A DNA stretch of 64,000 nucleotides, taken from contig OZ022499.1 in assembly GCA_963989385.1 (NCBI GenBank), positions 77,613,903 to 77,677,902 of the forward strand, read 5' to 3'. Positions 19,601 to 55,600 of this stretch are shown here, in pieces (positions within the stretch are counted from its first letter, which is position 1; every line of letters starts with the position of its first letter). Under the pieces are notes generated by a model. The model ran no database searches. It saw only the letters and a program-made list of their open reading frames with translations, and had not been told where the DNA came from. The stretch is from Ctena decussata (taxonomy: Eukaryota > Mollusca > Bivalvia > Lucinida > Lucinidae). A program made the translations under genes and the position numbers.

Positions 19601-22600
19601 CTGTCTTCCCAGCAAAACAGTAGATTTAGGAGGGGTGGAGTACACCATAACACCAGGACTTTTGAATATAGCATATTCATTCTCAGTGTACCAACCACGG
19701 ACGAACATCGAGTATGTGTCTTTCTCAGATAACTGGCTACCTAAGAACAGAGAATTAATTGTACTTGTCTATCACATGTAACTGGACATCTATGCACAGA
19801 TAATTAATTACACTCAATAAAACTAGAAAACATGTATGTTAAAATGCCAACAAAATGACAGAACAATGTTTTCATTGTAAGTTTGATCTGCCATATTATA
19901 CTGACCTTTCCATAGCACATGTAATGGCAGCTATTAGAACTGACTACGCATACAATTTAACATGAACAGTCACATTTTTTTGTGTTTTTTCGCCATTTTA
20001 CAAATAAAACATCTTTAGTGACTGCCTGTTCGCTTCAAGTACAACGTAGTGCTTCCTGTATACAGTCTAGCTGGTTTTAAAAGAAAGAATTTGCTGCACT
20101 AGAAACAAATTCTTTTCTTTCAGTGTTTACCCCTACTGGAAATGGCAAAAAAATGAATGTTGCTGAGTTGCTTCCTACGGAATTTTATCAGTTTACCTTA
20201 ATTGCAAAGAAGCGATATCAGCATGCTGATCATCACTGAATCATTGAATATTTCCCAATTTGAAAGTATAAGCTTATATTACCTTTTGGCAAAACATAAA
20301 ATATGCAATTTCTCTGACCAGCATCATGCCACACCCTGTCGAGAGCTTCATTAAATATTCCCTTCGGAACAGAATACATCGTCTCTCCAACGCTCCACTC
20401 ATACCTATAATGAAAGGAAAACACTCACTGAAATATTAACTATCTTTGAATTGTAGAACTCGAAAAGCAGTTAAATTTGGTGAAAATTTCATTAAAATCG
20501 GACTTACCGTAAGAAAGATACAAAGGTTTAATACTCAAAAACGTCATTAACTCAAAAATTTGCTAGTTCCCAGCTCAATATTCTAATATCTACAAATGTT
20601 CATGCGTTCTTTAATTTCAGTCTGATTTTCAAGAAATTTACGGCAAACTTTATGTTTTATTTGAGTTTTCAATTACTTAAGGTAGACGAATACTGAATAG
20701 AAATATTGGCGGGGCATTCAAACCATTATACCATCTAAATAACCCAAAGAGCTATAAAACATTTGGGTAAGAAAAAAACAATTTTCACCGTTTTGTTTTC
20801 CTAAAAAACAATATTTTGTATTTCTGCATATTATTTTTAAACATTTTCCATTAAAATTCATATCTCTAGCACATGAACGCACTTTCATTTCAGCAAATCA
20901 TATAATCTGTAATATATGATATTTGAAACAAACTGATAACAAAAAATTGCAGTTTTCTTGTTAATAAGTATATTTTTACATTCTTTGAAAAAATGCAAGA
21001 AAATTGAATTTCATGAAAAACGTCATATGAAAATATTATCAATCGATGGGGCATGCTTATGCGTATTATTTTAGTAAAACTTACGTCGTATGTTAAAGAA
21101 TAAAACAAAAAAACAAACATTTCACCGTTTCGTTTCCTAGAAAAACAATGTTTAAGTTCAAAATATCCCCAAAACAGACTGCCCAAATTCTGCACCTGCT
21201 GCAAGCACAGCCGGTCCTTGCTCTATTATTTATTTTCCTGTTATTCGGTTCTACCATAGAGTAATGTCGACAAAAATGCTCAGATGGAATGGAAACTGTG
21301 AAGATCTTGATCATTCTGGTTCCTAAGGAACAGTCTGATCTCAGTTTTCACTGTTTGTACAGACCTTTGTGCCCGAAAACTTAGGATCTTTACGGTAGAT
21401 ATTGTAAGTGTATATTATAACTGTATTTACTCCACAGTTAGTCGATTTGATGATGAACAATAACTCTGTTTGTTTTTTAAACAAGCAAGAACAGAGTTCT
21501 TGAGGGATCGTCCACCTTAAGACCAATGCGTAATTAGGCGAGTGTTTTCCTTTAAAGAACACTCACAATGCACACAAGCTGGAACAACTTTATATCAACA
21601 TCGAAGAAAACCACATGGCATTAGTTTCAAAGGTTGTGTCTCTCTTCTTGTACATAGATGTAGATTCTTGCAAATAGTTAAAATGGCTTATCTCCTTTTT
21701 TGTAAATGCTAAATTCTGAATTTGACACCGCACATAACGGTACAATGGTCAGAAATAATGAAGATAAATAGAACCAGAAGATACCTGTGGATGTCTATTT
21801 TATATATATTTACTGGCGAAAATTTTTGACGCACTATCGATCGGTAGTTTTGAAAAGGAGATAAGAAGGCAACGATCAGGAACCAACACAATCGCTTACC
21901 ACATCCTACCCTAAACACCAAATGACTCTCAACAGACTCTCTCAGACTCTCAGCAGTAGGAAAAGCACAGAAACGCTGCAGCAAAAGAAGTCAACTAGCT
22001 AACTCGTTAACCAACTTAGAAAGAGTTGTTTAGGCCGGAGCTGTCATTAGATCTGAGACCCGACCCATCGGCGTGCAATTAAAAAGGGCAGCAAAAGTGC
22101 CAAAATTTACTCTTTCGGTACAGCATTGCAGGTATACAGTCTTACCATTTTATAGCACCTGGATTTGAAGCGATCCAACAGGCAGCCAGCATGTCATTCA
22201 GCGGAGAAAATTCGACAACGATTTGCCCTAGTGGAAATGTGATGTCAATATAGTCTATCACGGTCAGCCTGTCGGTTAAACTGCCTGTAAAAACACAGTA
22301 ATTTTTAAGTCTTAAAGCTAAAGCGCTGAACATATATATAGTTCAATATACAAACAGCCTAGATCCAGATGAGGTGGCTAATAATTTAAATCATGTTTTC
22401 AAATTAAAATCTGAAAGAGTTCCTTCAAGAGCAGAGAATACATTCACAAGAAGAAACATGGGCCAGACTACGTAGTTTCGGCTAATTAAGCCTCTTCAGT
22501 GACCCTGACAATATCTGGTGATGAAACCAGAGAAAAGCGAACTGTAATTTCCTAATCTTTATTGGACAGTCCATTTAAAGACTGATTAGTACCAAAAAGG

Positions 22601-25600
22601 GTCCAAAAAATATATAAAACGACGGTTTAGAATATGAGTATAAACCAATCTAAATTTTCAGATTTCTCAGAATATATTCTCTGATCTCAAAAGACGAAAA
22701 TAAAATGTAATCTGCACTATGGATGATGTACGGGGAGACTTTTTACGGCCGCCACACGGCACAACACCAGCTGCAGTGAGGTAAAATTAAAATCTGAAAG
22801 AGTTCCTTCAAGAGCAGAGAATATATTCACAAGAAGAAACATGGGCCAGACTAATTTGCTAATTTCAAAACCTAATTTGCTTTTCAAGTTCTTAATCAGA
22901 ACTATGGCTCTATCTCTTTTCCGTAATGCCGCCTCATCATGATTTGATTTAAAGCAGTCAAATTATTCTGGATAGTGGATACCACCGACACTGCGTTTGT
23001 TAAACCGATGTTTATCATCTAAGCTAGGATGAACTGCCGTGCACAAACAGATTTAAAGACACGTAAACTATTCAACAATAGAAGAGAAATCCTGCAGGAA
23101 GTATCATGTTATTAAGTATTGCATATGTCAATCTCTTCACAAGAAAAATGTACATCAACGTATAGTCCGGTCTCATGGTACCAAGGGTTCCATGGTACCA
23201 AGGCAAATTGAATCTGGCTTTGTTGTCAAACTTTAATCATTTGCTGGGCCTTGATATTACTATATTTATAAAGTAGGGGTATGCTACTGTGTACTACAAA
23301 ATAATTTATAAGATAATTAGGATAAATATCTGAATAAATATCAAATAAAGTAAAAAATTGGAAAATGTGTTTTTTCAACTTTTCCAGCAACCACCAGTAC
23401 TATACAATTGTTGATATTTAATGTCAGCAATAATTCTTAATTCAACTTTTGCTATTGAATGGTTCAATTTACTCTTCCCTTAAAAATGCAAATAGAAATT
23501 ACAACTTGAATGTATGCTTATTTATTTTTGGAGTGATTGATATATGGGCTGTCATTAAGCCTTAAAACTGAAAATAGCACAAATTTACACAAATCATTTT
23601 GATAGGTAATCGGGAAACTGGCTGCAACTGTTCCAAAATCCTTTTCTCATTCAAATGCCTTTAAAGTTACTCTTACAAATAATTTTTGCTTGGTGAAACT
23701 ATATCCTAAGATCTCCACACAGTCCAAGTAAATATTATACACCTTACGTCATAATGAAGGAAATTTTGAATATGCCATTTCCAGATTTCTAATGGTCAAA
23801 ATCACCTAAATTAAAAGTTTTTATGAGTTCCAATAAGACTGATAATAACCATTAATATCTTGCCTGAAACACTGTGAGATATTGATATTTTTTATTATGT
23901 AAACTTTATAAATTTGATAGCTTTCTGTTTGCCTTGGTATCATGAGAATGTATTCTGACAGGAAAATAGTCAGCATGACTTTGTTCGATTCCTGCTAGTA
24001 AATAATAGCAGGATTTATATGAAGATTAATCTTTATTATAACTTAGAACACGGTTTGTTGAAAACACTTTTGTGCATCAATCAATGCAGTGTTGCACACA
24101 GCATGTGTTGTCTCACTTTAAACATTAAGTACCTTGGTACCATGGAATCCCTAGCTACACAACTTACTAGAGCTAAGGTCAGTACACGTGGTGTCACTAT
24201 CTAAGCATACTTGACCATGAGGAGCGCACACACAATGACCATAACAAGTATGGGCGCTACATCTTCTGATCAGCTCCATCTCCATTAGCCCTCCAGATAA
24301 CAGCTCAAATTGGGAGTGTATAAGCGGGCTTGACTGGCCAACCTACAAAATAACATATTTAGAATATGTACACCACAGAGACACGTAACGTTTTGCTTTA
24401 GATCAAATTATAAATACAGTTACAAATATAAAAGAATCATGACAAAATTTATTTTGTTTGCTTCCTTTCTTATTGAATCGTTTTAATTTAAGCATGAAAC
24501 AACTTTCATAAAATGAAACCAGTAGTCATGCTGCTTGAGGAATATTTTATATTGTTGTCAAATAAACTAATGCTATTTCAGCCAAAACCAACTCAGTGAA
24601 TATCTTAAATCCGTTTACCCCATTTATGCTGTACATATGAATAAATATTGTTGGTGGTGCAGTGAGCTTCGCTAGTGATTGTGTCGGCAACTCAGCCTTC
24701 TGTATTGTTCCTTCCACATGACTTGTGCCACCAGCATCATGAGGAATCTGGTATGGTAGGCCTGGAAACTGAGAAGAAAAAAGAAGAGTTTAACCAAATC
24801 TCGCTGAAACATGTTAAATATCATATAGAAAATGTCAGTAGATAATGCCAGTTGTTCATCGTCTCCCAGAACACAAGCTGGTCGCATAGTGTTTAAGGCA
24901 CCTGGAGTAGGCGGAGATCCCCTTTATGCCTGTCCAAATTTATCTAACAAGAAATATAATGATAACATTGCTAAGCTGACTGTTTTAACGATATACACAG
25001 TACTTTTAAGATATATTTTCACACCTGACAATCAATACTAACAGCAATCACCATTTTTGTAGTGATGGTGGTCATATACTGTTATAGAACTACACAGTCT
25101 TACTCCAAAATCATAGCATTCAAAATGAAATACTTTAATGATAATGCCGTCTAGATCCCGGAAAGTGATTTTTCATATGCTGAATCTTTTATATAAAGGA
25201 ATTATGTTGTTCAAAAATCAAAGAGAAGTTAGTTACCTCATTAAGATCATTCCCCATAAAATGTGAACCAATATTTATTTCGTAGTGGCTCGTTCCTGAA
25301 TGAATGTCCTCAAATCCTAGCCAAGCGAGTTTAATTGACAGAATAGACCATGTCATATATTTATTGGGCTCCCTGTCCAAATTAGCTGCGTGGTTGGTGT
25401 TCACGGCAAATGTACCTGGAATGGACAACTGGGCATTATTATAGTTTTAATCTGCCTCGTTAAGTCCGTTTTAATACGTATCTTAACATACGGTTTATAA
25501 ATTATAAGCAGACCCTTTTCTCACAAATATCCATATAGCCCATCCTTTTGTGGACCTCTGCAATGCTGGTACAGTTGACAATTAAGTTATTCGTTTAGCA

Positions 25601-34600: not shown

Positions 34601-37600
34601 ACGTATGCCAACTTCAACAAAATCTGATATATCAACACCTCCAAATGCTGAACCTGTGAAAACAAGAAGAATTTAGTTTCATCATTAAGGGACACGCAAT
34701 CCATACGCTGAAAAATAAAGCAGTCATTTAGAATTCGCTAGTTTGTATATGAACTAACCGATTCTCACCCTAGTAACTACATCCTTCACCCAGTTTATTA
34801 AGGAGACTGGTTATACTGTCAGGCATCTTTATTTTTCGGCTCCATCTTTAATGGATGTAAACACTGAAAGGAAAGTATTTCCTTCTCTAGGAGTAAATTC
34901 TTTCCTTTAAAAGCAGACCCCCTTTTTGGAGATTTATATTATCAAAAGAAGCATACAGGAAGTTACAAAAGTTGTCTACCTTTGAAAATATGGCGGAAGA
35001 ACCTGATGGTGTGCCAATACACCTTAAAGTCAAAACAAAAACCAGCCCGAATCACGATACCTAGCAAAGCACAAACACTAAGCAAAAACCCCACAATCAC
35101 CAATTCTATCTCTATAACTCAAGCCCCACTAAATTGGTTGAATTAATCATTATGTTATTTTAATTTTTAATCAGATTAAACAATGTATTTTAGCATGATA
35201 CGATATATACTGTATACAAGTGGAAGATTTTTAAATGTTTTGGAAAAAATCTTTCTGAGTAGGAAAACATTCCATCCACAATATAATGGGTTAAAAAAAA
35301 ACAGTAAATGACAGCACTAAAAACAGAAAAATAAATTATTTGAGAATGAATTATAGGTGTGATAAAAAATCTTTTATATACATTATAAAATAATATATCC
35401 CACAGTTTATAACTCTTTAAAATTAACATGTATTCGTAATTAAACTCATTTTTTAACAAGAGCATGTGAGCAGAGGCTCACGTATACCCCCGGCCAGCGC
35501 CATCACCTAATAAAAACACACTAAAGCAAATGTTAAATAACAGACATATGAATGGACAATCTATTACAAATCCAGTGGAAGGCCTTTAGACAAATACACA
35601 ATGGTTCCATTAAAACATGCAAATTATGTTATCAAAAGAAAATACAAATTTAACACAAAAATTCAACACAAATTTACATAAAGTTCTACGTCAGTGACCT
35701 TGACCTAAAGTCAGCGGCAGCATCCAGATGATGTAAACTAGTCAATTTAAACCTATAACTAAACCTAGTCACATAGCAAACTGAGAAATCTTTAACATAA
35801 ATTTTACCATTTATTCCATTGGAGATAGAGATGGAAAAAAGGAAAAAATGAAGGACAAAAGAAATCTTAGCATTTTGATTTTCTTTCCTACAATAAACTT
35901 GGCCATTCTCAAGATGTAAAAAAAATTGAAGACTGTGGCTCTCTTAGGAACATAGAAAACTGTGACAAAAAATAAGCTGGAGAGAAAGAAAAATGGACAA
36001 ACAAAGGGAATGATAAGCAGGAGGTCGATACTCTATTACACCATACAACTAGTCATACCCAACATTTGCACCAAATTTCAAAAGCCTAGCTGTAGTGGTA
36101 CCTGAGAAATCTTGGGACAGAAAAAATTTAATTTTAAAGGAGAGAAAGAAGAAATGGACAAACAAAGGGAATGATATTGGGGAGGAGGCTGATGTTTTCT
36201 TACACAATACAACTAGTCATACTCAATGTTTGTGATAAATTTCAAAAACCTAGGTGTAGTTGTTCCTGAGAAATCTATGATAGAACTTTAATTGGAAAGC
36301 AAGTAAATATGGACAAACAAAGGGAATGATAAGCAGAAGAAAGCTAATTGTCCCTTATACTGTACATCTAGTTATACCCAACATTTGTACCAACCTTATA
36401 AATCCTAGCTGTTGTGGTTCCTGAGAAATCTGTGACAGAAATTTAATTGGAGAGAAAGAAAAAATGGACAAACAAAGGGAATGATAAGCAGAAGATGGCC
36501 AATACTCTCTCACATGGTACATCTAGTAATACCCAACATTTGTACCAAATTTCAAAATCCTAGCTGTTGTGGTTCCTGAGAAATCTGTGACAGAAATTTA
36601 ATTGGGGAGAAAGAAAAAATGGACAAACAAAGGGAATGATAAGCAGAAGAAGGCTGATTGTCTCTTACAAAGTACAACTAGTCATACCTAACATTTGTAC
36701 CAAATTTCAAAATCCTATCTATTGTGGTTCCTGAGAAATCTGTGATAAAAATTTAATTGGAGAGAAAGAAAAAATAGACAAACAAAAGGGATGATAAGCA
36801 GGAGAAGGCCTATTATTTGCTACACAGTACAACTAGTCATACCCAACGTTTGTACCAAATTTCAAAATCCTAGCTATTGTGGTTCCTGAGTAATCTGTGA
36901 CAGAAATTTAATTGGAGAGAAAGAAAAAATGGACAAACAAAGGGAATGATAAGCAGGAAAAGGCTGACTGTCTCTTACACGGTACTACTAGTCATACCCA
37001 ACGTTTGTACCTTACTTCAAAATCCTAGCTATTGTGGTTCCTGAGAAATCTGTGACAGAAATTAAATTGGAGAGAAAGAAAAAATGGACAAAGGGAATGA
37101 TAAGCAGGAGAAGGCTGATTGTCTCTTACAGGGTACAACTAGTCTTACCCAACGTTTGTACCAAATTTCAAAATCCTAGCTATTGTGGTTCCTGAGAACT
37201 CTGTGAGAGAAATTTAATTGGAGAGAAAGAAAAAATGGACAAACAAAGGGAATGATAAGCAGGAGAAGGCCTATTATATCTCACACAGTACAATTAGTCA
37301 TACCCAGCGTTAGTACAAATTTCAAAATCCTAGCTATTGTGGTTCCTGAGAAATCTGTGACAAAATTTTAATTGGAGAGAAAGAAAAAATGGACAAACAA
37401 AGGGAATGATAAGCAGGAGAAGGCTGATTGTCTCTTCCACCATACAACTGGTCATACCCAACATTTGTACCAAATTTCAAAATCCTAGCTATTGTGGTTC
37501 CTGAGAAATCTGTGACAGAAATTTAATTGGAGAGAAAGACAAAATGGACAAACAAAGGGAATGATAAGCAGGAGAAGGCATATTATCTCTCACACAGTAC

Positions 37601-40600
37601 AACTAGTCATACCCAACGTTTGTACCAAATTTCAAAATCCTTGCTATTGTGGTTCCTGAGAAATCTGTGACAGAAATTTAATTGGAGAGAAAGAAAAAAT
37701 GGACAAACAAAGGGAATGATAAGCAGGAGAAGGCTGATTGTCTCCTACAAGGTAAAACTAGTCATACCCAACGTTTGTACCAAATTTCAAAATCCTAGCT
37801 TTTGTGGTTCCTGAGAAATCTGTGACAGAAATTTAATTGGAGAGAAAGAAAAAATGGACAAAAAAAGGGAATGATGAGCAGGAGAGGGCTGATTGTCTCT
37901 TACACAGTACAACTAGTCATACCCAACGTTTGTACCAAATTTCAAAATCCTAGCTATTGTGGTTCCTGAGAAATCTCTGACAGAAAAAATGTTAACAGAG
38001 AAATCTTTGACAGAAATTTAATTGGAGAGAAAGAAAAAATGGACAAACAAAGGGAATGATAAGCAGGAGAAGGCTGACTGTCTCTTCCACCGTTCAACTA
38101 GTCATACCCAACATTTGTACCAAATTTCAAAATCCTAGCTATTGTGGTTCCTGAGAAATCTGTGACAGAAATTTAATTGGAGAGAAAGAAAAAATGGACA
38201 AACAAAGGGAATGATAAGCAGGAGAAGGCATATTATCTCTCACACAGTACAACTAGTCATACCCAACGTTTGTACCAAATTTCAAAATCCTTGCTATTGT
38301 GGTTCCTGAGAAATCTGTGACAGAAATTTAATTGGAGAGAAAGAGAAAATGGACAAACAAAGGGAATGATAAGCAGGAGAAGGCTGATTGTCTCCTATAT
38401 GGTAAAATTAGTCATACCCAACGTTTGTACCAAATTTCAAAATCCTAGCTATTGTGGTTCCTGAGAAATCTGTGACAGAAATTTAATTGGAGAGAAAGAA
38501 AAAATGGACAAAAAAAGGGAATGATAAGCAGGAGAAATCTGATTGTCTCTTACACAGTACAACTAGTCATACCCAACGTTTGTACCAAATTTCAAAATCC
38601 TAGCTATTGTGGTTCCTGAGAAATCTCTGACAGAAAAAATGTTAACAGAGAAATCTTTGACAGAAATTTAATTGGAAAGAAAGAAAAAATGGACAAACAA
38701 AGGGAATGATAAGCAGGAGAAGGCTGACTGTCTCTTCCACCGTACAACTAGTCATACCCAACATTTGTACCAAATTTCAAAATCCTAGCTTTTGTGGTTC
38801 CTGAGAAATCTGTGACAGAAATTTAATTGGAGAGAAAGAAAAAATGGACAAACAAAGGGAATGATAAGCAGGAGAAGGCCTTTTATCTCTCACACAGTAC
38901 AACTAGTCATACCCAACGTTTGTACCAAATTTCAAAATCCTAGCTATTGTGGTTCCTGAGAAATCTGTGACAGAAATTAAATTGGAAAGAAAGAAAAAAT
39001 GGACAAACAAAGGGAATGATAAGCAGGAGAAGGCTAATTGTCTCTTACACAGTACAACTAGTCATACCCAACGTTTGTACCAAATTTCAAAATCCTAGCT
39101 ATTGTGGTTCCTGAGAAATCTCCGACACAAAAAAAGGTTAACAGAGAAATCTGTGACAGAAATTTAATTGGAGAGAAAGAAAAAATGGACACACAAAGGG
39201 AATGATAAGCAGGAGAAGGCTGACTGTCTCTTCCACCGTACAACTGGTCATACCCAACATTTGTACCAAATTTCAAAATCCTAGCTATTGTTGTTCCTGA
39301 GATATCTGTGACAGAAATTTAATTGGAGAGAAAGAAAAAATGGACAAACAAAAGGAATGATAAGCAGGAGAAGGCTGATTGTCTCTTACACGGTACAACT
39401 AGTCATACCCAACGTTTGTACCAAATTTCAAAATCCTAGCTATTGTGGTTCCTGAGAAATCTGTGAGAGAAATTTAATTGGAGAAAAAGAAAAAATGGAC
39501 AAACAAAGGGAATGATAAGCAGGAGAAGGCCTATTATATCTCACACAGTACAATTAGTCATACCCAACGTTTGTACCAAATTTCAAAATCCTAGCTATTG
39601 TGGTTCCTGAGAAATCTCTGACAGAAATTTAATTGGAGAGAAAGAAAAAATGGACAAACAAAGGGAATGATAAGCAGGAGAAGGCTGATTGTCTCCTACA
39701 CGGTACAACTGGTCATACCCAACATTTGTACCAAATTTCAAAATCCTAGCTATTGTGGTTCCTGAGAAATCTGTGAAAGAAATTTAATTGGAGAGAAAGA
39801 CAAAATGGACAAACAAAGGGAATGATAAGCAGGAGAAGGCCTATTATCTCTCACACAGTACAACTAGTCATACCCAACGTTTGTACCAAATTTCAAAATC
39901 CTTGCTATTGTGGTTCCTGAGAAATCTGTGACAGAAATTTAATTGGAGAGAAAGAAAAAATGGACAAACAAAGGGAATGATAAGCAAGAGAAGGCTGATT
40001 GTCTCATACACGGTACAACTAGTCATACCCAACGTTTGTACCAAATTTCAAAATCCTAGCTATTGTGATTCCTGAGAAATCTGTGACAGAAATTTAATTG
40101 GAGAGAAAGAAAAAATGGACAAACAAAGGGAATGATAAGAAGGAGAGGGCTGATTGTCTCTTACATAGTACAACTAGTCATACCCAACGTTTGTACCAAA
40201 TTTCAAAATCCTAGCTATTGTGGTTCCTGAGAAATCTGTGACAGAAATTTAATTGGAGAGAAAGAAAAAATGGACAAACAAAGGGAATGATAAGCAGGAC
40301 AAGGCATATTATCTCTCACACAGTACAACTAGTCATACCCAACGTTTGTACCAAATTTCAAAATCCTTGCTATTGTGGTTCCTGAGAAATCTGTGACAGA
40401 AATTTAATTGGAGAGAAAGAGAAAATGGACAAACAAAGGGAATGATAAGCAGGAGAAGGCTGATTGTCTCCTATATGGTAAAATTAGTCATACCCAACGT
40501 TTGTACCAAATTTCAAAATCCTAGCTATTGTGGTTCCTGAGAAATCTGTGACAGAAATTTAATTGGAGAGAAAGAAAAAATGGACAAAAAAAGGGAATGA

Positions 40601-43600
40601 TAAGCAGAAGAAATCTGATTGTCTCTTACACAGTACAACTAGTCATACCCAACGTTTGTACCAAATTTCAAAATCCTAGCTATTGTGGTTCCTGAGAAAT
40701 CTCTGACAGAAAAAATGTTAACAGAGAAATCTTTGACAGAAATTTAATTGGAAAGAAAGAAAAAATGGACAAACAAAGGGAATGATAAGCAGGAGAAGGC
40801 TGACTGTCTCTTCCACCGTACAACTAGTCATACCCAACATTTGTACCAAATTTCAAAATCCTAGCTTTTGTGGTTCCTGAGAAATCTGTGACAGAAATTT
40901 ATTGGAGAGAAAGAAAAAATGGACAAACAAAGGGAATGATAAGCAGGAGAAGGCCTTTTATCTCTCACACAGTACAACTAGTCATACCCAACGTTTGTAC
41001 CAAATTTCAAAATCCTAGCTATTGTGGTTCCTGAGAAATCTGTGACAGAAATTAAATTGGAAAGAAAGAAAAAATGGACAAACAAAGGGAATGATAAGCA
41101 GGAGAAGGCTGATTGTCTCTTACACAGTACAACTAGTCATACCCAACGTTTGTACCAAATTTCAAAATCCTAGCTATTGTGGTTCCTGAGAAATCTCCGA
41201 CACAAAAAAAGGTTAACAGAGAAATCTGTGACAGAAATTTAATTGGAGAGAAAGAAAAAATGGACACACAAAGGGAATGATAAGCAGGAGAAGGCTGACT
41301 GTCTCTTCCACCGTACAACTGGTCATACCCAACATTTGTACCAAATTTCAAAATCCTAGCTATTGTTGTTCCTGAGATATCTGTGACAGAAATTTAATTG
41401 GAGAGAAAGAAAAAATGGACAAACAAAGGGAATGATAAGCAGGAGAAGGCTGATTGTCTCTTACACGGTACAACTAGTCATACCCAACGTTTGTACCAAA
41501 TTTCAAAATCCTAGCTATTGTGGTTCCTGAGAAATCTGTGACAGAAATTTAATTGGAGAGAAAGAAAAAATGGACAAACAAAGGGAATGATAAGCAGGAG
41601 AAGGCCTATTATATCTCACACAGTACAATTAGTCATACCCAACGTTTGTACCAAATTTCAAAATCCTAGCTATTGTGGTTCCTGAGAAATCTCTGACAGA
41701 AATTTAATTGGAGAGAAAGAAAAAATGGACAAACAAAGGGAATGATAAGCAGGAGAAGGCTGATTGTCTCCTACACGGTACAACTGGTCATACCCAACAT
41801 TTGTACCAAATTTCAAAATCCTAGCTATTGTGGTTCCTGAGAAATCTGTGAAAGAAATTTAATTGGAGAGAAAGACAAAATGGACAAACAAAGGGAATGA
41901 TAAGCAGGAGAAAGCCTATTATCTCTCACACAGTACAACTAGTCATACCCAACGTTTGTACCAAATTTCAAAATCCTTGCTATTGTGGTTCCTGAGAAAT
42001 CTGTGACAGAAATTTAATTGGAGAGAAAGAAAAAATGGACAAACAAAGGGAATGATAAGCAGGAGAAGGCTGATTGTCTCCTACACGGTACAACTAGTCA
42101 TACCCAACGTTTGTACCAAATTTCAAAATCCTAGCTATTGTGATTCCTGAGAAATCTGTGACAGAAATTTAATTGGAGAGAAAGAAAAAATGGACAAACA
42201 AAGGGAATGATAAGAAGGAGAGGGCTGATTGTCTCTTACATAGTACAACTAGTCATACCCAACGTTTGTACCAAATTTCAAAATCCTAGCTATTGTGGTT
42301 CCTGAGAAATCTCTGACACTAAAAAAATGTTAACAGAGAAATCTGTGACAGAAATTTAATTGGAGAGAAAGAAAAAATGGACACACAAAGGGAATGATAA
42401 GCAGGAGAAGGCTGACTGTCTCTTCCACCGTACAACTGGTCATACCCAACATTTGTACCAAATTTCAAAATCCTAACTATTGTGGTTCCTGAGAAATCTG
42501 TGACAGAAATTTAATTGGAGAGAAAGAAAAAATGGACAAACAAAGGGAATGATAAGCAGGAGAAGGCCTATTATCTCTCACACAGTACAACTAGTCATAC
42601 CCAACGTTTGTACCAAAGTTTAAAATCCTAGCTATTGTGGTTCCTGAGAAATCTGAGACAGAAATTACATTGGAGAGAAAGAAAAATGGACAAATAAAGG
42701 GAATGATAAGCAGGAGAAGGCCTATTATCTCTCACACAGTACAACTAGTCATATCCAACGTTTGTACAAATTTCAAAATCCTAGCTATTTTGGTTCCTGA
42801 GAAATCTGTGACAGAAATTTAATTGGAGAGAAAGAAAAAATAGACAAACAAAGGGAATGATAAGCAGGAGAAGGCTGATTGTCTCCTACACGGTACAACT
42901 AGTCATACCCAACGTTTGTACCAAATTTCAAAATCCTAGCTATTGTGAGTCCTGAGAAATCTGTGACAGAAATTTAATTGGAGAGAAAGAAAAAATGGAC
43001 AAACAAAGGGAATGATAAGCAGGAGAAGGCTGATTGCCTCCTACACAGTACAACTAGTCATATCCAACGTTTGTACCAAATTTCAAAATCCTAGCTATTG
43101 TGGTTCCTGAGAAATCTCTGACACAAGAAAATGTAAACAGAGAAATCTGTGACAGAAATTTAATTGGAGAGAAAGAAAAAATGGACACACAAAGGGAATG
43201 ATAAGCAGGAGAAGTCTGACTGTCTCTTCCACCGTACAACTGGTCATACCCAACATTTGTACCAAATTTCAAAATCCTAGCTATTGTGGTTCCTGAGAAA
43301 TCTGTGAAAGAAATTTAATTGGAGAGAAAGACAAAATGGACAAACAAAGGGAATGATAAGAGGAGAAGGCCTATTATCTCTCACACAGTACAACTAGTCA
43401 TACCCAACGTTTGTACCAAATTTCAAAATCCTTGCTATTGTGGTTCCTGAGAAATCTGTGACAGAAATTTAATTGGAGAGAAAGAAAAAATGGACAAACA
43501 AAGGGAATGATAAGCAGGAGAAGGCTGATTGTCTCCTACACGGTACAACTAGTCATACTCAACGTTTGTACCAAATTTCAAAATCCTAGCTATTGTGATT

Positions 43601-46600
43601 CCTGAGAAATCTGTGACAGAAATTTAATTGGAGAGAAAGAAAAAATGGACAAACAAAGGGAATGATAAGAAGGAGAGGGCTGATTGTCTCTTACATAGTA
43701 CAACTAGTCATACCCAACGTTTGTACCAAATTTCAAAATCCTAGCTATTGTGGTTCCTGAGAAATCTCTGACACAAAAAAAATGTTAACAGAGAAATCTG
43801 TGACAGAAATTTAATTGGAGAGAAAGAAAAAATGAACACACAAAGGGAATGATAAGCAGGAGAAGGCTGACTGTCTCTTCCACCGTACAACTGGTCATAC
43901 CCAACATTTGTACCAAATTTCAAAATCCTAGCTATTGTGGTTCCTGAGAAATCTGTGACAGAAATTTAATTGGAGAGAAAGATAAGCAGGAGAAGGCCTA
44001 TTATCTCTCACACAGTACAACTAGTCATACCCAACGTTTGTACCAAAGTTCAAAATCCTAGCTATTGTGGTTCCTGAGAAATCTGAGACAGAAATTACAT
44101 TGGAGAGAAAGAAAAAATGGACAAACAAAGGGAATGATAAGCAGGAGAAGGCCTATTATATCTCACACAGTACAATTAGTCATACCCAACGTTTGTACAA
44201 ATTTCAAAATCCTAGCTATTGTGGTTCCTGAGAAATCTGTGACAGAAATTTAATTGGAGAGACAGAAAAAATAGACAAACAAAGGGAATGATAAGCAGGA
44301 GAAGGCTGATTGTCTCCTACACGGTACAACTAGTCATACCCAACGTTTGTACCAAATTTCAAAATCCTAGCTATTGTGATTCCTGAGAAATCTGTGACAG
44401 AAATTTAATTGGAGAGAAAGATTAAATGGACAAACAAAGGGAATGATAAGCAGGAGAAGGCTGATTGTCTCCTACACAGTACAACAAGTCATACCCAACG
44501 TTTGTACCAAATTTCAAAATCCTAGCTATTGTGGTTCCTGAGAAATCTCTGACACAAAAAAATGTTAACAGAGAAATCTGTGACAGAAATTTAATTGGAG
44601 AGAAAGAAAAAATGGACACACAAAGGGAATGATAAGCAGGAGAAGGCTGACTGTCTCTTCCACCGTACAACTGGTCATACCCAACATTTGTACCAAATTT
44701 CAAAATCCTAGCTATTGTGGTTCCTGAGAAATCTGTGACAGAAATTTAATTGGAGAGAAAGAAAAAATGGACAAACAAAGGGAATGATAAGCAGGAGAAG
44801 GCTGATTGTCTCTTACACGGTACAACTAGTCATACCCAACGTTTGTACCAAATTTCAAAATCCTAGCTATTGTGGTTCCTGAGAAATCTGTGACAGAAAT
44901 TTAATTGGAGAGAAAGAAAAAATGGACAAACAAAGGGAATGATAAGCAGGAGAAGGCCTATTATATCTCACACAGTACAATTAGTCATACCCAACGTTTG
45001 TACCAAATTTCAAAATCCTAGCTATTGTGGTTCCTGAGAAATCTCTGACAGAAATTTAATTGGAGAGAAAGAAAATATGGACAAACAAAGGGAATGATAA
45101 GCAGGAGAAAGCTGATTGTCTTTTCCACCATACAACTGGTCATACCCAACATTTGTACCAAATTTCAAAATCCTAGCTATTGTGGTTCCTGAGAAATCTG
45201 TGAAAGAAATTTAATTGGAGAGAAAGACAAAATGGACAAACAAAGGGAATGATAAGAGGAGAAGGCCTATTATCTCTCACACAGTACAACTAGTCATACC
45301 CAACGTTTGTACCAAATTTCAAAATCCTTGCTATTGTGGTTCCTGAGAAATCTGTGACAGAAATTTAATTGGAGAGAAAGAAAAAATGGACAAACAAAGG
45401 GAATGATAAGCAGGAGAAGGCTGATTGTCTCCTACACAGTACAACTAGTCATACCCAACGTTTGTACCAAATTTCAAAATCCTAGCTATTGTGATTCCTG
45501 AGAAATCTGTGACAGAAATTTAATTGGAGAGAAAGAAAAATGGACAAACAAAGGGAATGATAAGCAGGAAGGGGGTGATTGTCTCTTACATAGTACAACT
45601 AGTCATACCCAACGTTTGTACCAAATTTCAAAATCCTAGCTATTGTGGTTCCTGAGAAATCTCTGACACAAAAAAATGTTAACAGAGAAATCTGTGACAG
45701 AAATTTAATTGGAGAGAAAGAAAAAATGGACACACAAAGGGAATGATAAGCAGGAGAAGGCTGACTGTCTCTTCCACCGTACAAATGGTCATACCCAACA
45801 TTTGTACCAAATTTCAAAATCCTAGCTATTGTGGTTCCTGAGAAATCTGTGACAGAAATTTAATTGGAGAGAAAGAAAAAATGGACAAACAAAGGGAATG
45901 ATAAGCAGGAGAAGGCCTATTATCTCTCACACAGTACAACTAGTCATACCCAACGTTTGTACCAAAGTTCAAAATCCTAGCTATTGTGGTTCCTGAGAAA
46001 TCTGAGACAGAAATTTAATTGGAGAGAAAGAAAAAATGAACAAACAAAGGGAATGATAAGCAGGAGAAGGCTGATTGTCTCTTACACGGTACAACTAGCC
46101 GTACCCAACGTTTGTACCAAATTTCAAAATCCTAGCTATTGTGGTTCCTGAGAAATCTGTGACAGAAATTTAATCGGAGAGAAAGAAAAAATGGACAAAC
46201 AAAGGGAATGATAAGCAGGAAAAGGCTGATTGTCTCTTACACAGTACAACTAGTCATACCCAACGTTTGTACCAAATTTCAAAATCCTAGCTATTGTGGT
46301 TCCTGAGAAATCTGTGACAGAAAAAATGTTAACATACACACACACACACACACACACACAATCATATGAAAGGTAGGTTCCTGGACTAGCGATAACAATT
46401 ATGTCCTCAAAATAATTTCGCCTTTTTCTGAGCAGTATTGAATTCTCTTATTTTTTTTAATTTGTTGCTACTGAGAAACTCGTCAGATGTTGAAGAAAAT
46501 AGTCGTTTTCCCTTTTGGTTTATTTTCTTTCGTTGGAATTCCAGTTCTAAAAAATAACTATGTTTACTATGTCTATGAGTGCGCGATTTCTGATGCCATT

Positions 46601-52600: not shown

Positions 52601-55600
52601 TGACGACAACGTCACATGATCAATTGTCGTTCATCGGCGTATGAAGCTAATAATTAGTCTACAGGGGTCAGTGGCAAGTTTAAAATTTAATTGAATCCCG
52701 ATAAGGATAAAAGATCTTTAGCAATAAATATTCCGGCTCGTCCATGAGTCTGTAATATTTAGCAGCTCAATTCTTCCTTTTTGTGCGCCATTTAAATTCG
52801 TAAGGGTCAACAAATGATATGTTTGACCAATGAAGGCTCTAACTATAAATGCAGAAGTATTAGCAACCGTCTCATTTTATGCATGTTATATGCATAAACT
52901 GAAACGATTGCTAAAGACTCAAGGCCTTTATCCAACCAACAAATCCTAATGAAATCATGAATGCAAAACTCTACAAATATTGCTTTCAACAGTAGAAGTT
53001 AGCAATATCAGCAATTTTGAAACAAAACAGAAACATATACATGTGTGGAAAAAACTCATTTTACAGTACTTGTGTTTCAGATACCTAGAACAAGCTGTAC
53101 TACGAATGAAAAAACAAGAATGGCATTTTCTTTCTCACTTTCTAATATGTTTACTTTCAAACACATTATTACAAGTACTACATTAACATGCTTGATAGAC
53201 AAAAAGTGTGAGTAATGATGATTTTTCAATAAGTTGTCGAGAACAGTGAAAGTTTTAATACTTCAATTTCGCAATTGTTGTTTTATTTATATTATCAATT
53301 TTTTATATATGAGCCGCGACACGAGAAAACCAACAATGTGGTTGTGCGCCCAGCGCAGACTCAGATCAGCCTGGGCATCCGCCCAGTCTGATGAGAGTCT
53401 TTGCTGTCCGCATGGAGATAGCTTAGTCCCTTGGCTACCTTTTAAGTGCTTAATAAAGAGTCTGGTCAGACTGGGCGGATGCCCAGGTTGATCTGAGTCT
53501 GCGCAGGGCGCACAACCACATTGTTGGTTTTGTCATGTCGCGGCTCAATTATTATTTTTTTATTTAATTATTTTTTTTGTCCGACCAGATTGGAGTCTAT
53601 TACCTGCTGGGTGTCAGTGGCATACTGAACTTCGATAGTGCCGGCTATCGGTGGGTTTGGTATGACAGTAACGCCGTTGCTAGCAACAGGTTCATAACAG
53701 AATTTGCCAGCACAGAGTTTTATTGAGACTCTGTATTTCTTCCCGGGCTGCAAAATGAGTTCCCTTGCTTGGACGTGATCAGAAGTCTTAATATGCTCGT
53801 AGTCTTTGAATATTGTCCAGTAGTCTTAAATGATAAAACAAAATAATAGATGAGCCGCGACATGATAAAACCAACAAAGTGGAATGTGCGCCCAACGAAG
53901 GCTCAGATCCATTCTGGGTATTCGCCCGGTTTGGTCAAAGTCTTCACTGTCCGCATAGGGTTAGCTGAGGTTCCCAGCAGCCTTTTAAGCGCATAGCGAA
54001 GACGCTGATCAGACTAGACGGATGTCCAGGCAGATCTGAGTCTTTGCTGGGTGCACAACCAACTTTGTTGGTTTTGTCGTGTCGCGGCTCAATATATCGT
54101 CCTTATAAAGATGCGTCTTAAAAACAGTGTTAACTAGAATTGTTTTTCTACGAAAAAACAGATGTCTCCCCTCTTCTATGTCAAAAGGATCAGTCATTAA
54201 GACGCCAAGGGAAAAACAATATGTTTCCCTACCCTGAAGCAGGGATTCATAATAAGTAAAAAGTATAAATGCAAGAGTTATAGTTATTATGCTCTGCATG
54301 TCATGTAATGTTGACTGATATTCATATTTAGTTTTTTTCAACCAATATAAATGCAAGAGTTACAGTGCTCTGCACGTCGTTTATTTATATGTTGACCGAT
54401 ATTTGTATGAAGTTTCATGAATATAGCTTAAACGGTTTTCAAGTTATAGAGCTTAGTCGATTGAGACACGATTTTGTGAATGACAAAGTTCCAAGGGAAA
54501 TAACTCAAATAGTATAAATGCTGTGCTCTGCAGGTTGTCTAGTGTTGACTGACATTTGTATGAAGTTTCGTGAATATAGCTTGTCCGGTTTTCAAGTAAT
54601 AAAGCGATTGAGACACGATTTTGTGACTGACAAAGGTCCAAGGGAAATAACTCAAGAAGTATAAATGCAAGAGTTATGGTTCTTGCACTATGCAATTTTT
54701 CTAATGTTTATTGATATTTGTGTGAAGTTCTGTGAATATAGCTAGAATGGTTTTCAAGTTATAGAGCAGACACGACTGAGACACGATTTTGTGACTGACA
54801 AAGTTCTAAGGGAAATAACTCAAATAGTATAAATGCTAAAGTTATGGTTCTTGCATTCTGCACGTCGTCTGATGTTGATTGATATTTGTATGAACTTTCA
54901 TGAATATAGCTTGAATGGTTTTAAAGTTATAGACGGACTCGACTGAGACGCAATTCTGTGATGGACAAAGTTCCAAGGGAAAAAACTCAAAAAGTATAAA
55001 TGCCAGAGTTACCATTTGTGCACTCTGCACATCGCCTCATGTTGATTGATATTTGTATGAAGTTTCGTGAATAAAGCTTGAGCAGTTTTCAAGTTATAGA
55101 GCGGACACAATTGAAACACAATTTTGTGATGGACTAAGTTCCAAGGGAAATAACTCAAAAAGTATAAATGCCAGAGTTACCATTCTTGCACTCTGCACGT
55201 CGTCTCATGTTGATTGATATTTATATGAAGTTTCGCGAATATAGCTTGAGCGGTTTTCAAGTTATAGAACGGACACGATTTGTGACAGACAGACGGACAG
55301 ACAGAAAGACAGACGCCCGGGGAAAAACAATATGTCTCCCGATCCTAAAGGGGGGAGACATAATCATTGGCACAGATAAATAAATTTAAAGCCTTCAGGC
55401 TATGAGCGTACATCTTCGCAAAGGATGTGACTTGTATGACTATAAAATATTTCTATGCTAATATATATAGCCTATATTGAAATACCGCAAAAATCGCCAT
55501 TAACTACGAAAAGGTATATTTATCATTGACCGTTTAAGGTGGTACGTTTCTTGCGGAACGTCTAAAATTAATGCATTTCGTGGGCATTGCCCTTACAATT

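Follow-up and report, generated by a model that had tools for sequence, protein, structure and literature searches.

The complete type I hammerhead ribozyme on the minus strand of the window (the whole 64-kb stretch of DNA analyzed here) almost certainly belongs to an abundant and dispersed family of retrozymes in which the ribozyme lies at the junction between units. The window copy is, with comparably high confidence, an animal non-LTR retrozyme that was recently inserted in sense orientation into an intron of a host gene, by chance as far as can be seen. This identification draws on the computed anatomy of the copies and on their number, on near-fixed 3' ends combined with scattered 5' ends, on the intact ribozyme core and on hammerhead-bearing Penelope-like elements that share this genome.

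A complete type I hammerhead had been proposed at positions 22505-22460 of the minus strand by an earlier, sequence-only reading, and this claim has been confirmed by base-by-base inspection, by a descriptor scan with simulations and by genome-wide motif matches. On the minus strand, stem I pairs GGGTCA (22505-22500) with TGGCCC (22465-22460), giving 6 bp with one G-U; the core consists of CTGAAGA (22499-22493) and GAAA (22479-22476); and stem II (4 bp) pairs GGCT (22492-22489) with AGCC (22483-22480) around the loop TAATT. Stem III, i.e., ACT (22476-22474) paired with AGT (22469-22467) around the palindromic loop ACGT, comprises 3 bp including A15.1-U16.1. The motif parts listed previously can all be read on the sequence, and the list is to be extended by this short stem III, which it omitted. 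The GTC triplet occupies 22468-22466 and, by the established hammerhead rule, cleavage is expected directly after it, between 22466 and 22465; judged by its sequence, the ribozyme would be capable of self-cleavage. In the descriptor scan of both strands of the 64 kb, this hammerhead was the single site even with loose settings. In 200 windows simulated with a first-order model, the strict descriptor (stems I, II and III of at least 6, 4 and 3 bp) had no matches and the loose descriptor averaged 0.115 per window.

The Rfam hammerhead models, which had been suggested as a check, gave no gathering-level match in the window; indeed, nothing in the window reached the gathering score in the Rfam 15 scan. 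In permissive scans, sub-threshold matches were obtained to RAGATH-1-hammerhead (16.8 bits, gathering 56.3) and Hammerhead_3 (16.0 bits, gathering 48.5). A search with E up to 1 in 13 further loci (10 retrozyme and 3 Penelope-like) reached no gathering score either, and in one of these loci Hammerhead_3 matched twice, at 23.6 bits. Because Rfam misses the 10 other family loci as well, i.e., every scanned copy of the family, its failure says little about the window motif, and Rfam was dropped as a judge of hammerheads here. With regard to folding, the 66-nt hammerhead stretch shows no folding advantage over shuffled versions of itself (z -0.09), and the three-stem ribozyme fold, at -12.4 kcal/mol vs -13.4 kcal/mol for the best fold, is not the predicted minimum.

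The ribozyme is part of an insertion of ~453 nt with its 5' end at 22853 and its 3' end at 22401 (minus strand), which was delineated by a 70-nt direct repeat spaced 383 and by the family match. It consists of a 383-nt unit followed by a 70-nt repeat of the unit start. Family mapping places one unit, from cut site to cut site, at 22848-22466 and the remainder at 22465-22401, with no other family match in the window. The first copy of the terminal repeat (22853-22784) begins five bases ahead of the cut-equivalent position (TAGTC, then TGGCCC), so that the substrate side is present there and the catalytic core is absent; the second copy (22470-22401) starts inside the ribozyme, which spans the unit junction. 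The two copies are 99% identical, differing at one of 70 positions, which points to a young insertion. Since there is a single complete ribozyme in the window copy, the transcript of this copy could undergo one cleavage and would not be expected to release a 383-nt circle. The 3' end of the element (22402-22401) lies 64-65 nt past the cut and, in view of the 3' ends of the other mapped copies, is presumed to mark the start of reverse transcription.

No reverse transcriptase or GIY-YIG frame is present within the 453-nt insertion; an 81-aa stop-to-stop frame crosses the unit (22717-22962). As a circle, the unit has a predicted energy of -90.7 kcal/mol vs a mean of -76.1 kcal/mol for 200 dinucleotide shuffles (z -2.56; none of the 200 as low), with paired bases no more numerous than in the shuffles. 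Between the ribozyme and the 3'-end site, unit positions 9-46 (window 22457-22420, minus) are predicted to form a hairpin of about -8 kcal/mol in two subfamilies, a candidate binding site for reverse transcriptase.

The host locus is a large repeat-domain gene, many exons of which, matching one another, were seen on the minus strand across 821-61635. The repeat-domain exons at 25.2-31.9 kb and at 17.6-19.1 kb match each other, indicating that the element, which has such exons on both sides, is inserted in sense within that gene, in an intron. The previously claimed position, sense to a minus-strand gene and 180 nt before an acceptor, is borne out, with a plausible acceptor AG ending at 22285. 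The putative exon past this intron (22284-22146, minus) has the look of an acceptor and a donor and an open frame; it matches no repeat-domain exon of the window and no homologue of it was found, so its status rests on these splice-site and frame features. Pfam identified no family at E 0.01 for 10 frames of the repeat-domain gene and, for five proteins searched with E up to 5, three of them from this gene, no match close to a curated score; the frame at 821-1630 has eight unnamed relatives. Also inside the gene span is a tandem array of ~10.4 kb (35954-46323) in which a 155-bp unit is overlaid by higher-order periods of 310 and 465, and a further array with a 168-bp unit in about 4.5 copies is present at 54526-55278.

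In the genome from which the window comes (1.66 Gb), the ribozyme motif has 5,617 exact matches (2,887 + 2,730) when core position 7 and the stem II loop are left free, and the reversed pattern has none; neither were there any exact matches in viral contigs. All four bases occur among the 100 motif places listed at position 7, which is known as the free position of the hammerhead core. Of 4,116 candidates obtained with a 221-base query around the ribozyme, the 40 that were scored match at 93-100%; several of these lie in tandem, mostly spaced by about 381-384. The units of the family are 383-384 nt long and are found in single, partial-dimer and multimer copies, among them an array of 11 near-identical units plus 71 nt in L011 (1213-5507). 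This array starts with TAGTC ahead of the cut site, as does the window copy. An older, diverged second copy of the family (88.7%) with the usual 3' end, at 65, was noticed in L024 (2899-3022). In 20 loci, a small sample picked for likeness to the window, the 14 core sites show no changes in 280 cells vs 77 in 4,618 elsewhere, with about 4.7 expected at the rate of the other sites. Thus, the family combines the typical traits of retrozymes, namely, a complete hammerhead in each unit, units in the range of 170-400 nt that form partial dimers and multimers, and dispersal in many copies.

The ends of the insertions were mapped in 70 fetched loci and the window; these loci are not neutral, 20 having been chosen for likeness to the window and 50 for an intact motif. 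Without five second views (L031, L038, L040, L043 and L055) and the rows at locus edges, 72 rows are available, and in 63 of these the 3' end falls at unit position 61-68, with 39 at 64 or 65; the remaining nine are at 51, 59, 70, 71, 72, 73, 113, 168 and 384. An element was counted as clean if its borders were clean, its length reached 100 nt and its 3' end lay at 59-73; this holds for 66 of 79 rows, the 13 excluded ones including the 3' ends at 51, 113, 168 and 384, locus edges and elements below 100 nt. Clean elements range from 124 to 4,295 nt. In 23 of the 66 the length exceeds 460 nt, which implies a template with more than one 3'-end site.

The 5' ends are scattered over the unit, with a small excess adjoining the cut. 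Seven of the 66 clean elements start at the cut or within the 6 nt preceding it, compared to 1.2 for an even distribution of starts (P about 0.0002, for a span picked after the data were seen). These are the copies of the window, L011, L016, L018, L059, L069 and L060, the junctions of which were read by eye, and five of the seven begin 4-6 bases ahead of the cut, in the stem III hairpin. Genome-wide, the pattern for near-cut starts was found at 541 places. In the 100 of these that were listed, the sequence ahead of the cut agrees with the ribozyme over 4 bases in 10, 5 in 18, 6 in 43 and fewer than 4 in 29; 27 of the 43 six-base matches read TGTAGTC and probably originate from CpG decay of the full ribozyme, so the number of genuine near-cut 5' ends is blurred. 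The peak of 5' starts is broad within the near-cut span, the one span counted genome-wide. Of the 28 places with a 4- or 5-base match, 20 were fetched and 19 were readable: 12 end near +64, i.e., are inserts of ~70 nt, and seven continue into the unit.

No target-site duplications were seen in the 50-nt flanks of the 66 elements. The longest word shared by the two flanks averages 5.76, mismatched flanks give 5.55 (s.d. of the mean 0.13), and a single 12-nt flank match, in L014, is distant from both element ends. Downstream flanks are A-rich, with CAA in 7 of 38. An upstream target motif was considered as the source of the AGTC ahead of the cut and was rejected, given that it is absent in the 57 elements that begin elsewhere. 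Two further signals were observed in the fetched loci: a SECIS_1-like match in L037 (2585-2653; 34.6 bits vs gathering 35), and in L046 (1894-1951), ~300 nt past the retrozyme, a near-perfect palindrome that matches mir-9256 on both strands below gathering and is perhaps a small inverted-repeat transposon.

Several explanations other than a retrozyme copied from an internal start have to be weighed against these data. The sequence-only reading had likened the motif to the intronic hammerheads of amniotes, in which case the host gene would keep the ribozyme to cut its own intron and tune splicing. The complete motif and its sense placement in the intron, 180 nt ahead of the acceptor, agree with such a role, but the thousands of genomic copies, the retrozyme anatomy, the near-identical and hence young terminal repeats and the lack of an Rfam hammerhead match at gathering all argue against it, and analysis of the sequence of the window and the genome revealed nothing in favor of a function of the ribozyme in its gene. 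The amniote intronic families are HH9 and HH10. PMC7761336 mentions the amniote ribozymes as conserved intronic hammerheads; they share with the window motif the type I architecture and the sense orientation in an intron, but they are few and conserved at one place, whereas that of the window is one of thousands, dispersed and young, and is not tied to a single conserved intron place. The likeness to amniotes is accordingly not supported, a host device appears extremely unlikely, and the case shows that an intronic ribozyme can be mistaken for one. That DNA recombination spread a satellite or tandem repeat in which the hammerhead was simply carried along is in our view scarcely credible: tandem arrays such as that of L011, with 11 units and 71 nt, do exist, but the sampled elements are mostly single or partial and scattered, with near-fixed 3' ends and varied 5' ends.

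The main rival to an internal start is a SINE-like element transcribed by Pol III, the RNA of which would end at a T-run near unit positions 58-66 where a LINE enzyme would start, so that the fixed 3' end would be the end of the RNA. The 3' ends indeed lie in or adjoining a T-run (GATTTTAATTTTAC), and schistosomes carry small dispersed hammerhead-bearing SINE-like repeats which, compared by description, resemble the present family as small dispersed hammerhead repeats. The multi-unit insertions found here, in contrast, agree poorly with a Pol III origin: the 23 of 66 clean elements that exceed 460 nt hold the T-run inside, and there is no cluster of 3' ends at the other runs of four to six T in the unit. 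We consider such a Pol III element improbable, and so too the view of the fixed 3' end as an RNA end. The excess of 5' ends near the cut could, in turn, be interpreted as the trace of a linear, ribozyme-cut template, in which case the genome would record cutting in vivo. This is what the seven starts in the last 6 nt to the cut, vs 1.2 expected in a span chosen post hoc, would suggest. However, run-off from a cut end would begin at TGGCCC, whereas the start of five of the seven falls within the stem III hairpin, 4-6 nt short of the cut, which better fits an enzyme halted by the folded ribozyme; moreover, part of the 100 listed near-cut places are decayed ribozymes. A cut template as the cause of the excess is thus doubtful.

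Penelope-like elements, the candidate source of the enzyme for an internal start, are present in the same genome. The GIY-YIG family yielded 150 scored matches of 926 candidates, all above the curated cut-off, many of them in open frames of 766-774 aa, arranged as facing pairs or as tandem copies with a spacing of about 3,681 or 3,895 bases. In the L079 unit, a minimal hammerhead can be read by eye; the base of its stem II is a U-U, and its tetraloop is TGCA. Among 20 fetched Penelope-like 3' regions, the hammerhead was located in 12 and not in the other eight; in all 12, the 3' end lies 55-101 nt past the element's own hammerhead, although the exact ends are blurred by TA repeats that most copies run into. 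For ten of these, which belong to the family of L079, the match to the tandem copy extends to 55 (four), 87 (one) or 98-101 (five) nt past the cut; the remaining two come from another family and meet TA repeats at 60 and 63 nt past the cut. In the loci L079-L099, which mostly run into TA repeats, one family was observed to have two alternative 3' ends about 45 nt apart. No retrozymes were seen in TA repeats, unlike most of the 20 fetched Penelope-like copies, and a comparison of the retrozyme with one 1.6-kb stretch of a Penelope-like element revealed only weak, chance-like matches. Since the retrozymes lie outside TA repeats and show no target-site duplications, the fetched Penelope-like copies need not be the driver.

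Taken together, we lean toward a Penelope-like enzyme as the driver of retrozyme copying, and propose the following route. By analogy with the published mussel and coral retrozymes, the hammerhead would cut the transcripts, and the products may be closed to circles. With nicked target DNA serving as primer and a circle or an uncut multimer as template, a reverse transcriptase, probably that of a Penelope-like element, would begin internally, about 64 nt beyond the cut, and would copy back through the uncut ribozyme junction and around the unit. Copying would end at variable places, with stops in excess over the final bases ahead of the cut, and the window copy would result from a single turn and a further 65-70 nt or so. 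Against this scheme stand the nine of 72 rows that end elsewhere and the ribozyme fold, which is not the predicted minimum. More tentatively, retrozymes may be parasites of Penelope-like elements that mimic their layout of a hammerhead followed by an internal start, with the folded ribozyme stopping the enzyme. If so, the genome would keep a footprint of the folded ribozyme: insertions would start within the stem III hairpin, and the smallest would span just the ~70 nt between this hairpin and the fixed 3' end, as at 12 of the 19 readable places.

The closest published parallel to the 3' ends described here comes from a lizard. PMC11167929 reports that a lizard Penelope-like enzyme starts reverse transcription at two adjacent internal sites past the hammerhead, that genomic copies end at those sites, about 85-92 nt past the cut, and that insertion in vitro did not require cutting by the ribozyme. 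With Penelope-like elements, so described, the retrozymes share a hammerhead followed tens of nucleotides on by the 3' end, as well as tandem and partial copies; they differ in having no visible enzyme frame and a longer stem III and in not residing in TA repeats. A near-fixed 3' end past a hammerhead is therefore a mark published for one Penelope-like enzyme, and its occurrence here connects the internal start of PMC11167929 with the retrozymes of PMC7229834, suggesting a target-primed start near +64.

In PMC7229834, where they received their name, animal non-LTR retrozymes of mussel, coral and axolotl are characterized by type I hammerheads, the mussel units being about 350-390 bp and found as circular RNA, and the mussel hammerheads are without most of the conserved nucleotides of the helix I-II loop contact. 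The same source leaves open which enzyme and RNA are behind the movement of animal retrozymes (LINEs or Penelope-like elements), with Penelope-like elements as a strong candidate. In the open-licence literature, as judged by titles and the beginnings of abstracts, no papers mapping the insertion ends of animal retrozymes were found; the ends of thousands of insertions in a single genome can test which enzyme moves them. The family described here agrees with the metazoan retrozymes described there in the junction-spanning type I hammerhead, in short units of low G+C, in the occurrence of single, partial-dimer and tandem copies in thousands, and in the presence of Penelope-like elements in the same genome. 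The likeness is one of anatomy, with units of 383-384 nt compared to about 350-390 in mussel. The differences from that account are the 3' end, near-fixed ~64 nt past the cut, the scattered 5' ends and the target sites, for which PMC7229834 mentions larger duplications "when present" and at which none was seen here.
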